Below are positions 40,801-46,800 of a DNA stretch of 64,000 nucleotides, one piece after another. The DNA comes from Owenia fusiformis. Its lineage: Eukaryota > Annelida > Polychaeta > Sabellida > Oweniidae. Location of the stretch: contig CAIIXF020000010.1 in the NCBI GenBank assembly GCA_903813345.2, forward strand, positions 6,873,169-6,937,168, given 5' to 3'. The notes under the pieces were generated by a model. It made no database searches, had not been told where the DNA came from, and saw only the letters and a program-made list of their open reading frames with translations. Both the position numbers and the translations under genes were made by a program. Each line of letters opens with the position of its first letter. Position 1 is the stretch's first letter.

Positions 40801-43800
40801 CTGTTCCAAGGGTGTGCCATATACTCAGGTTTTACTGTATAATGGGGACAATTTGTTTTAAGTCATGGCTTAAATGTAGTTATTACAAACAGCTCTTGGA
40901 TTCCTGTTTATTCAAAATCATTTTATTCTACTGGACTTGACAACTGGGTGATGAAAAATGAAATTATAATTTCTTCATAAAACATATTTTCCAAGCCTAT
41001 GATGTGAAGAAAGAGGTACATGTAAGTCAATGAAAAAATACTTGGTTCTTTTGAAACTGTTCCTTGTAGAGAGGTGTTCCTTACTGAAAGCCGTTCCCTT
41101 AACACATTTTACTGTACTATAATACAGTATTGCAAACTTAACCAGTAAGCCTATAATGATCTTGTATTATGATTGTATAGGTACTGGAAAGACACTACTA
41201 GCCAAGGCAGTTGCCACAGACACATTTCACTGTACTATAATCCAGTAGTGCAAACTTAACCAGTAAGCCTATAATGATCTTGTATTATGATTGTATAGGT
41301 ACTGGAAAGACACTACTAGCCAAGGCAGTTGCCACAGACACGTTTTACTGTACTATAATCCAGTAGTACAAACTTAACCAGTAAGCCTTTAATGATCTTG
41401 TATTATGATTGTATAGGTACTGGAAAGACACTACTAGCCAAGGCAGTTGCCACAGACACGTTTTACTGTACTATAATCCAGCAGTACAAACTTAACCAGT
41501 AAGCCTTTAATGATCTTGTATTATGATTGTATAGGTACTGGAAAGACACTACTAGCCAAGGCAGTTGCCACAGACACATTTCACTGTACTATAATCCAGT
41601 ATTGCAAACTTAACCAGTAAGCCTATAATGATCTTGTATTATGATTGTATAGGTACTGGAAAGACACTACTAGCCAAGGCAGTTGCCACAGACACGTTTT
41701 ACTGTACTATAATCCAGTAGTACAAACTTAACCAGTAAGCCTATAATGATCTTGTATTATGATTGTAAAGGTACTGGAAAGACACTACTAGCCAAGGCAG
41801 TTGCCACAGACACATTTCACTGTACTATAATCCAGTAGTGCAAACTTAACCAGTAAGCCTATAATGATCTTGTATTATGATTGTATAGGTACTGGAAAGA
41901 CACTACTAGCCAAGGCAGTTGCCACAGACACATTTCACTGTACTATAATCCAGTAGTGCAAACTTAACCAGTAAGCCTATAATGATCTTGTATTATGATT
42001 GTATAGGTACTGGAAAGACACTACTAGCCAAGGCAGTTGCCACAGACACATTTCACTGTACTATAATCCAGTAGTGCAAACTTAACCAGTAAGCCTATAA
42101 TGATCTTGTATTATGATTGTATAGGTACTGGAAAGACACTACTAGCCAAGGCAGTTGCCACAGACACATTTCACTGTACTATAATCCAGTATTGCAAACT
42201 TAACCAGTAAGCCTTTAATGATCTTGTATTATGATTGTATAGGTACTGGAAAGACACTACTAGCCAAGGCAGTTGCCACAGACACGTTTTACTGTACTAT
42301 AATCCAGTAGTGCAAACTTAACCAGTAAGCCTATAATGATCTTGTATTATGATTGTATAGGTACTGGAAAGACACTACTAGCCAAGGCAGTTGCCACAGA
42401 CACGTTTTACTGTACTATAATCCAGTAGTGCAAACTTAACCAGTAAGCCTTTAATGATCTTGTATTATGATTGTATAGGTACTGGAAAGACACTACTAGC
42501 CAAGGCAGTTGCCACAGACACATTTCACTGTACTATAATCCAGTATTGCAAACTTAACCAGTAAGCCTATAATGATCTTGTATTATGATTGTATAGGTAC
42601 TGGAAAGACACTACTAGCCAAGGCAGTTGCCACAGACACATTTCACTGTACTATAATCCAGTATTGCAAACTTAACCAGTAAGCCTATAATGATCTTGTA
42701 TTATGATTGTATAGGTACTGGAAAGACACTACTAGCCAAGGCAGTTGCCACAGACACATTTCACTGTACTATAATCCAGTATTGCAAACTTAACCAGTAA
42801 GCCTATAATGATCTTGTATTATGATTGTATAGGTACTGGAAAGACACTACTAGCCAAGGCAGTTGCCACAGACACATTTCACTGTACTATAATCCAGTAT
42901 TGCAAACTTAACCAGTAAGCCTATAATGATCTTGTATTATGATTGTATAGGTACTGGAAAGACACTACTAGCCAAGGCAGTTGCCACAGACACATTTCAC
43001 TGTACTATAATCCAGTATTGCAAACTTAACCAGTAAGCCTATAATGATCTTGTATTATGATTGTATAGGTACTGGAAAGACACTACTAGCCAAGGCAGTT
43101 GCCACAGACACATTTTACTGTACTATGATCCAGTAGTGCAAACTTAACCAGTTAGCCTATAATGATCTTGTATTATGATTGTATAGGTACTGGAAAGACA
43201 CTACTAGCCAAGGCAGTTGCCACAGACACATTTTACTGTACTATGATCCAGTAGTGCAAACTTAACCAGTTAGCCTATAATGATCTTGTATTATGATTGT
43301 ATAGGTACTGGAAAGACACTACTAGCCAAGGCAGTTGCCACAGACACGTTTTACTGTACTATAATCCAGTAGTACAAACTTAACCAGTAAGCCTATAATG
43401 ATCTTGTATTATGATTGTATAGGTACTGGAAAGACACTACTAGCCAAGGCAGTTGCCACAGACACATTTTACTGTACTATGATCCAGTATTGCAAACTTA
43501 ACCAGTAAGCCTATAATGATCTTGTATTATGATTGTATAGGTACTGGAAAGACACTACTAGCCAAGGCAGTTGCCACAGACACATTTCACTGTACTATAA
43601 TCCAGTATTGCAAACTTAACCAGTAAGCCTATAATGATCTTGTATTATGATTGTATAGGTACTGGAAAGACACTACTAGCCAAGGCAGTTGCCACAGACA
43701 CATTTCACTGTACTATAATCCAGTAGTGCAAACTTAACCAGTTAGCCTATAATGATCTTGTATTATGATTGTATAGGTACTGGAAAGACACTACTAGCCA

Positions 43801-46800
43801 AGGCAGTTGCCACAGACACATTTCACTGTACTATAATCCAGTAGTGCAAACTTAACCAGTAAGCCTATAATGATCTTGTATTATGATTGTATAGGTACTG
43901 GAAAGACACTACTAGCCAAGGCAGTTGCCACAGACACATTTCACTGTACTATAATCCAGTATTGCAAACTTAACCAGTAAGCCTTTAATGATCTTGTATT
44001 ATGATTGTATAGGTACTGGAAAGACACTACTAGCCAAGGCAGTTGCCACAGACACGTTTTACTGTACTATAATCCAGTAGTGCAAACTTAACCAGTAAGC
44101 CTATAATGATCTTGTATTATGATTGTATAGGTACTGGAAAGACACTACTAGCCAAGGCAGTTGCCACAGACACGTTTTACTGTACTATAATCCAGTAGTG
44201 CAAACTTAACCAGTAAGCCTTTAATGATCTTGTATTATGATTGTATAGGTACTGGAAAGACACTACTAGCCAAGGCAGTTGCCACAGACACGTTTCACTG
44301 TACTATAATCCAGTATTGCAAACTTAACCAGTAAGCCTATAATGATCTTGTATTATGATTGTATAGGTACTGGAAAGACACTACTAGCCAAGGCAGTTGC
44401 CACAGACACATTTCACTGTACTATAATCCAGTATTGCAAACTTAACCAGTAAGCCTATAATGATCTTGTATTATGATTGTATAGGTACTGGAAAGACACT
44501 ACTAGCCAAGGCAGTTGCCACAGACACATTTCACTGTACTATAATCCAGTATTGCAAACTTAACCAGTAAGCCTATAATGATCTTGTATTATGATTGTAT
44601 AGGTACTGGAAAGACACTACTAGCCAAGGCAGTTGCCACAGACACATTTCACTGTACTATAATCCAGTATTGCAAACTTAACCAGTAAGCCTATAATGAT
44701 CTTGTATTATGATTGTATAGGTACTGGAAAGACACTACTAGCCAAGGCAGTTGCCACAGACACATTTCACTGTACTATAATCCAGTATTGCAAACTTAAC
44801 CAGTAAGCCTATAATGATCTTGTATTATGATTGTATAGGTACTGGAAAGACACTACTAGCCAAGGCAGTTGCCACAGACACATTTTACTGTACTATGATC
44901 CAGTAGTGCAAACTTAACCAGTTAGCCTATAATGATCTTGTATTATGATTGTATAGGTACTGGAAAGACACTACTAGCCAAGGCAGTTGCCACAGACACA
45001 TTTTACTGTACTATGATCCAGTAGTGCAAACTTAACCAGTTAGCCTATAATGATCTTGTATTATGATTGTATAGGTACTGGAAAGACACTACTAGCCAAG
45101 GCAGTTGCCACAGACACATTTTACTGTACTATGATCCAGTATTGCAAACTTAACCAGTAAGCCTATAATGATCTTGTATTATGATTGTATAGGTACTGGA
45201 AAGACACTACTAGCCAAGGCAGTTGCCACAGACACATTTCACTGTACTATAATCCAGTATTGCAAACTTAACCAGTAAGCCTATAATGATCTTGTATTAT
45301 GATTGTATAGGTACTGGAAAGACACTACTAGCCAAGGCAGTTGCCACAGACACATTTCACTGTACTATAATCCAGTAGTGCAAACTTAACCAGTTAGCCT
45401 ATAATGATCTTGTATTATGATTGTATAGGTACTGGAAAGACACTACTAGCCAAGGCAGTTGCCACAGAGTGCAAGACAACATTCTTCAATATCTCAGCAT
45501 CAAGTATTGTCAGCAAGTGGAGAGGAGACTCTGAGAAACTAGTCAGGGTAGGTCCTATCTAGGGCTGAGTGAGTGGGTGGAGCTTCCCAATCCAGTGTAT
45601 TAGAGGTTTCATTGGCAGTAGGAATAAACGTGTTGTTGCCTGTTGTTTTGGGGAATGTTTCAAGTGTTTTTAATTTTGATTGTTTTGCTCATTATGGGAA
45701 ATTATAATGAATGTTTGCTATACTCACTTGAAAATCCCTATGTTGAGAAATAACATGAAAAGTGGAAATTGTTATGATGACACAACTGAATCAGTGAAAT
45801 TTCTTTGATTTTATGAGCTCATAAATTTTCACTATGTCTACAGTTTACATATTTATCATAATGCTGAATGTATTGATCACAACAGAATGCTTTCTGTTTC
45901 AGGTGTTATTTGAGCTAGCCAGATTTTATGCCCCTTCTACAATATTTATTGATGAGCTGGAGTCACTGATGAGTCAGAGGGGAGGGGGAGGAGGGGGGTA
46001 AGTAATAAGACAACTGTGTTGGACACCAAATGGTCCATTATTGCCGAGGCAATGGTCCATTTTTGCCCTTGACTTTATTGCCATTGACTTAGTGACTCAG
46101 AAATGAACTAGAACATTTATATGCATTAAGCATAACTTTCAAAATAATGAAGAAGTAATAAAGGATTATTTTAATGATTCTTTATTTTCTAGTCCTTTGT
46201 TTATAAAGTGAAGATAGATGATTGACCCATATTGAAAATTGTATTTCAGGGAACATGAAGGTAGTAGGCGCATGAAGACTGAGCTACTGGTCCAAATGGA
46301 TGGACTTGCCAAAACTGATGACCTTGTATTTTTGTTAGCTGCATCAAACTTGCCATGGTATGTATGTACTTTGGATGATTATATGATAATGGCTTAAACC
46401 TGAATGTTTCAGTGAGTCATTTCTGGTAGATGTGACGTTGGGCTACAGAAGTACAAAAGTACTTTCTCATATCTTTATTTATTTTTCTACTCTATACATA
46501 TTTATTTGGGCTAACACAGCTCCCTCATGTTCCTTTGTTTGAGTTTTTAATATTCCCTAACAGAATGTGACGTTGGCCTACAGAGGTGAAATAGTACTTT
46601 CGGATATATACTACTCTATACATATTTATTTGGGCTAACACAACCCCTTCATGTTCCAAATGTTTTGAGTTTTATCAATTTTTCTTAACAGATCATTGAC
46701 TAGCTAATTATCAACTAAAATTCATTGAAATTGTATGCAGGTGTACTTATGTGTTATCCAAGAAAACTTAAATAATGTGTTTCAGGGAGTTGGATCATGC

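Follow-up and report, generated by a model that had tools for sequence, protein, structure and literature searches.

In Owenia fusiformis, one intron-exon boundary of a gene for a katanin-like AAA ATPase, labelled KATNAL2, is present in 37 head-to-tail copies of 118 bp each, and arrays of the same kind cross exon edges in many unrelated genes of the genome. The KATNAL2 array occupies positions 41103-45468 of the analysed stretch of 64,000 nucleotides (assembly GCA_903813345.2, contig CAIIXF020000010.1, positions 6,873,169 to 6,937,168 of the forward strand), which is referred to as the window and whose coordinates are used unless a contig is named. The array is real and striking, yet it belongs to an already known kind, and the recurrence of boundary arrays across genes is more interesting than the single array. 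The structure is probably a minisatellite that happens to span a boundary, in which exon definition would pick the last copy and give a normal mRNA; it would thus be a tolerated by-product of tandem duplication and not a device.

Each unit, cut in register from 41103, comprises 78 bp of the intron end (...GATTGTATAG, closing with TATAG) and 40 bp of the exon start (GTACTGG...CCACAGA). Tandem Repeats Finder reports the interval 41102-45468 with a period of 118, 37.0 copies, 98% matches, and 0% indels, and together with a table of the units it bears out the anatomy, the coordinates, and the unit length given in the initial annotation, as well as the 36 decoys that precede the real exon. The AG of the acceptor is retained in 37/37 units, including unit 6, which reads TAAAG instead of TATAG. 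Every unit contains only the first 40 of the 119 bp of the exon, and the complete exon adjoins the last copy alone; the units carry splice signals, and the authentic boundary stands at one end of the cluster, where unit 37 leads into the complete exon and its donor at 45548. When the last unit with its exon was compared with the 498 Mb assembly, at least 37 matches were found, every one within the KATNAL2 array.

The joined exons encode an AAA ATPase (Pfam AAA, 1.2e-32), and the intron interrupts the Walker A motif (GPPG/TGKT; here and below a slash marks the splice junction). Among the 60 of 250 PDB sequences shown, the top scores belong to two-domain CDC48/p97 chains, which match via two stretches, while the best single-AAA-domain chains are those of katanin p60 A1 and A-like 1 (5zqm, 5zql, 6b5c). 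On its sequence the gene is a katanin-like ATPase, as had been proposed; its name, KATNAL2, and the numbering of the two exons as 11 and 12 are labels retained from the initial annotation.

The units had been described as 37 exact repeats of constant length. The number and the length stand, whereas the sequence identity does not: there are 14 distinct versions with 10 variable columns, and single units differ from the consensus at 0 to 5 positions. The versions follow one another along the array as ABCDEFBBBGHIEEEEEJJKLEMBGHINEEEEJJLEM, with a second round of BGHI...JJ...LEM, in which a block of ~14 units is imperfectly duplicated within the array. Such a pattern is what unequal exchange would leave. 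It is easy to misjudge how many units a minisatellite has, and the exact number of 37 is that of the assembly. It is nevertheless very unlikely that the real genome holds one or a few units and that the rest is an assembly error, since the 14 versions are ordered with an imperfect internal duplication and other boundary arrays with unrelated units are present within the same assembly; the true count may still deviate from 37.

The other genes were sampled exon by exon through three Pfam families, AAA, kinesin, and CCT chaperonin, with 22, 144, and 60 matches, respectively. As 18 kinesin rows were copies within one array and were counted once, 209 matches remained, and 192 of them were examined, KATNAL2 included, the other 17 having no retrieved DNA. 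Matches containing stops were trimmed to the longest open piece, and genes were named from their motifs and the Pfam family searched. Duplicated spans crossing an exon edge, counted by eye with the repeats already known, occur at 20/191 exons besides KATNAL2. Thirteen are acceptor cases (L073, L042, L059, L089, L039, L087, L119, L079, L054, L123, L037, L067, and L124) and seven are donor cases (L019, L078, L074, L088, L049, L133, and L055). Five of the 20 comprise no more than about two copies (L042, L049, L079, L119, L124), and L055 is diverged. The units are unrelated to one another. Downstream of a VPS4-like AAA exon lies an array of 45 bp x 24.7 made of the last 31 bases of the exon and the donor GTATGT; a kinesin acceptor array measures 159 bp x 17.9, and an array in a CCT gene has about six units of ~127 bp (no allelic copy of the CCT gene on contig C222 was found among the retrieved loci). 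An array of 93 bp x 3.9 in a KIF3-like kinesin (L031) lies outside a matched exon and was therefore left out of the curated count.

An automatic rule was also applied, in which a 32-nt window around a called splice site had to recur with at most 4 mismatches within 450 nt. It was positive for 7/89 acceptors and 6/119 donors, against 2/55, 0/54, 4/71, and 4/71 intron control points placed 100 and 200 nt away (10/251 in total) and 1/192 exon mid-points. The boundary rate does not differ from that of introns (p=0.29) and exceeds that of exon interiors (p=0.0017); boundaries are thus affected about as often as introns, and exon interiors rarely. The rule misses KATNAL2 itself, because only sites above a score were taken.

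A myosin sample of 58 of 92 matches was chosen before the DNA was inspected, and comprises nearly all matches free of internal stops outside a repeated N-terminal exon cluster on contig C9. Here the rule gave 1/32 acceptors, 1/34 donors, and 0/58 exon mid-points. Locus L146 has a clear acceptor array of 61 bp, and L172 a borderline donor array of 34 bp that takes in only ~4 exon bases. The difference between 20/191 and 2/58 is not significant (p=0.12). The cluster set aside (G000:C9:37986009-37994334) contains 12 irregularly spaced matches to one N-terminal part of the myosin head (model ~18-84), which are probably alternative exons.

Splice sites were scored with a matrix trained on the same survey data from a starting consensus, and, as only the best site of each exon was called, single sites rank somewhat too low. 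The KATNAL2 acceptor scores -1.02 in the units (-3.77 in the single unit that differs there) and is weak in every copy, at rank 14/190 of the called acceptors. The 36 decoy acceptors had been called equally good; locally they are, but the acceptor is weak in all copies, and it is the last copy alone whose exon is complete and ends at a good donor (5.8, rank 130/192). The best GT within a unit, CCA/GTAAGC, scores -0.98 and ranks 8/192; it is found in 31/37 units, and the other 6 have GTTAGC, with a score of -3.95. An acceptor of one unit and the decoy donor in the next would bound a pseudoexon of 82 nt.

All 36 decoys run into a stop, half of them at a TAG 65 nt past the acceptor (18/36) and half at a TAA 83 nt past it (18/36). 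The first decoy reaches TAG, as the initial annotation had it, and misuse of a decoy would indeed be destructive. It has been reported that a potato gene gained an intron through a duplication crossing a boundary (PMC4974935) and that human repeats at exon-intron boundaries are able to form novel introns (PMC2812944); by analogy, some decoys might serve as new exon or intron parts of stable mRNAs. With a stop at most 83 nt into every decoy frame, stable use as coding sequence is improbable, and we regard such capture as extremely improbable.

The stop after each of the 36 decoys and the possible 82-nt pseudoexon would also suit a rheostat, in which decoys are used frequently and under regulation, the early-stop transcripts decay, and the length of the array sets the amount of protein. 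Within KATNAL2 none of the 40 exon columns varies across the 37 units, in comparison with 10/78 intron columns (P=0.013), and the title of a C. elegans paper ties intronic minisatellites to splicing decisions (PMC4039745). Against this, the decoy donors score low (31 at -0.98, 6 at -3.95), similar arrays are present in many unrelated genes, and the invariance of the exon part is not general. Over the 11 arrays with three or more copies, conservation of the exon part as a shared trait was rejected (Wilcoxon p=0.16); the pooled variable columns amount to 48/308 for introns and 46/471 for exons (p=0.018), and the arrays of VPS4, L067, L133, and L123 point in the opposite direction. Regulated use of the decoys therefore appears unlikely.

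Recursive splice sites have AG/GT juxtaposed at the junction. The KATNAL2 junctions share this feature (TATAG/GTACTG, TAAAG/GTACTG in unit 6), and, because the exon starts with GT, each unit counted from the boundary is formally a GT...AG intron of 118 nt. A splice to a decoy would recreate CAG/GT, and further steps might correct the error, ratchet-like, until the real exon is reached. The regenerated donor CAG/GTACTG is, however, poor (-0.5, rank 9/192), that is, weak and not absent. In the survey AG/GT occurs in 6/14 acceptor arrays versus 17/89 called acceptors (p=0.08), with 8/14 lacking it, and such a junction was rejected as a general requirement for arrays. Recursive splicing is possible but not favoured, and its chance is quite small.

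In every unit the acceptor lies within an imperfect inverted repeat (41139-41200 and equivalent positions; CCAGTA..CCTATA / TATAGGTACTGG), which is predicted to bury the splice site. The hairpin has z=-1.91 (8/200 shuffles), and the predicted probability that the acceptor AG is unpaired is 0.0005, against a 5th percentile of 0.0053 among 156 others and a mean of 0.01 for the 36 decoys. As predicted pairing is alike in the decoys and the real copy, the hairpin was rejected as a discriminator between them.

Selection of the last copy by exon definition is the explanation we prefer. A decoy would offer a stub of 40 bp behind a weak acceptor, followed by a poor possible donor, and the last copy a 119-nt exon with a good donor; because the last copy alone forms a well-defined short exon, exon definition would select it, and for that reason a normal mRNA is most likely. 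The array would have started with a duplication reaching from within the intron to 40 bp inside the exon, and the duplicated segment would have been multiplied by slippage or unequal exchange. Copies would accumulate on the intron side, so that the exon of the last copy stays whole and no change in the protein is required. Arrays may arise anywhere, and those crossing a boundary would survive since one complete exon remains; the KATNAL2 array would then most likely be a by-product of tandem duplication going on genome-wide. The splicing machinery of Owenia fusiformis probably has to ignore near-identical false starts.

The recurrence with unrelated units, the block duplication of ~14 units, the ranks of the KATNAL2 sites, and the predicted pairing of the AG speak for this explanation, as does the likeness to the amphioxus repeats known as mirages, which are reported not to disturb splicing (PMC3087553). 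Several observations weigh against it. The invariant 40 exon columns of KATNAL2 are not expected under simple neutrality. A stronger AG, at unit position 26 (score 2.77), is left unexplained, and acceptor 36 joined to the real donor would give an exon of merely 237 nt, a size that exon definition may not by itself suffice to reject. Neither the weakness of the acceptor nor its predicted pairing separates the real copy from the decoys, and weak acceptors, being no general mark of boundary arrays (14 vs 176, p=0.79), were rejected as a general cause of them. The lower rate in myosin exons, at most 2/58, tempers any genome-wide estimate. Normal splicing, exon definition, the mode of growth, and neutrality are the most likely course of events as judged from genomic sequence.

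Table 1. Positions of the array and of the adjoining exons in the window.
Feature	Position	Strand	Basis
Upstream exon (exon 11), ending ...GGACCACCAG/ (GPPG of Walker A); donor GTATGA, score 6.7	40694..40757	+	sequence, reading frame, donor score
Array, 37 units of 118 bp	41103..45468	+	Tandem Repeats Finder, unit table
36 decoy units; decoy exon starts at 41181, then every 118 bp	41103..45350	+	unit table, frame check
First possible decoy donor, CCA/GTAAGC	41145..41150	+	splice-site scoring
Unit 37, copy continuous with the complete exon	45351..45468	+	sequence, unit table
Real exon (exon 12), 119 nt, begins /GTACTGG (TGKT of Walker A); donor AGG/GTAGGT at 45548, score 5.8	45429..45547	+	sequence, joined frame, Pfam
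Next exon	45903..45997	+	reading frame, joined frame

Other repeats are present in the same gene. An upstream intron holds a second minisatellite at 37463-38330 (52 bp x 16.6), whose reverse strand shows a donor-like motif, ATAG/GTGAGTG; a search of the upstream intron for short repeats found none. The intron after 46357 has two diverged copies of a stretch of ~100 bp (46358-46771), recognized by eye. Elsewhere in the window, a repeat of 51 bp x 3.0 at 53742-53892 lies within an open frame and forms 17-residue units (TTDDHTDY...), an array in coding sequence. On the minus strand, 12825-14444 holds a SKI/SNO-type gene (Pfam Ski_Sno_DHD 3.1e-37, c-SKI_SMAD_bind 9.3e-26). Two stretches (29664-30188 and 30991-31584) share their reverse-strand open frames and represent a local duplication or a repeat element, and a dispersed repeat at 27982-28424 is ~90% alike in L011 and L024 and 84% in L049. 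On contig C3, four Rfam matches to mir-2, 3 of them above the cut-off, lie within 5.2 kb (G000:C3:15959502-15964738); the mir-2 family is not known outside protostomes. An amphioxus genome, which the mirage papers had suggested, was therefore judged unlikely; Pfam GFP yielded 0 candidates, a result that is weak by itself because the control genomes yielded none either, and COX1 yielded no match.

A wider and rather doubtful proposal is that tandem boundary arrays touch several percent of all exons in this probable protostome, set near-exact splice-site decoys in many genes, and act as a nursery of introns. If true, the genome would be a natural test of exon choice as well as a source of new introns, and the length of an array could adjust splicing from one individual to another. 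Splice-site copies that are nearly exact and distinguished only by their flanks provide a clean natural experiment, with exon definition on one side and choice of the first acceptor on the other, and boundary arrays also bear on how tandem duplication can yield new introns. In the papers found, amphioxus boundary minisatellites are described gene by gene; here they affect several percent of the sampled exons, with up to 37 copies, which suggests a second lineage in which arrays that copy boundaries are routine. They are also a hazard for annotation, as in a lancelet PGBD5 gene model that mistook repeat copies for an exon (PMC3902484).

Among the open-access papers found, with subscription papers mostly outside the search, none reports by its title or abstract that boundary-spanning repeats are widespread in a protostome. 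Mutually exclusive exon clusters, such as those of Dscam and Mhc, consist of whole exons with both splice sites ahead of a constant exon. The KATNAL2 array resembles them in that a constant exon is preceded by a long series of exon-like units. It differs in that a unit contains only 40/119 exon bases and lacks the exon's own donor, and it was rejected as such a cluster, which requires a complete exon per unit. The potato RdRp gene gained its intron through a tandem duplication over a boundary, and the duplicated segment, as in KATNAL2, crosses the intron-exon boundary with the acceptor and the exon start; there, a single duplication occurred and the new intron was detected, whereas KATNAL2 has 37 copies, known from DNA (PMC4974935). 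Human segmental duplications contain variable internal tandem repeats at exon-intron boundaries, on average of 30-bp units x 4, in recent paralogues (PMC2812944). These are likewise boundary minisatellites and can alter splicing; their ~30 bp x 4 in recent paralogues contrasts with 118 bp x 37 in one gene.

The initial annotation considered a minisatellite of this placement unusual, which does not hold, in view of the 20/191 curated exons, the one clear and one borderline case among 58 myosin exons, and the published mirages of amphioxus. In the latter, intron/exon boundaries of Adh3, TnC, and the globins BflGb6 and BflGb9 are copied in tandem (PMC3087553), and the lancelet PGBD5 has repeats of 60 and 108 bp across splice sites (PMC3902484). 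Normal splicing is reported only for the amphioxus genes (PMC3087553), the KATNAL2 array being known from the DNA of one haplotype. The two lineages differ, with mirages in a cephalochordate and the KATNAL2 array probably in a protostome, and so does the copy number, 37 in KATNAL2 versus 6 and 3 in two amphioxus BflGb6 haplotypes (PMC3087553). Both are tandem boundary copies with splice signals inside the units, and the unit lengths are similar, 150-160 bp in BflGb6 and 60/108 bp in PGBD5 compared with 118 bp in KATNAL2 (PMC3087553, PMC3902484).

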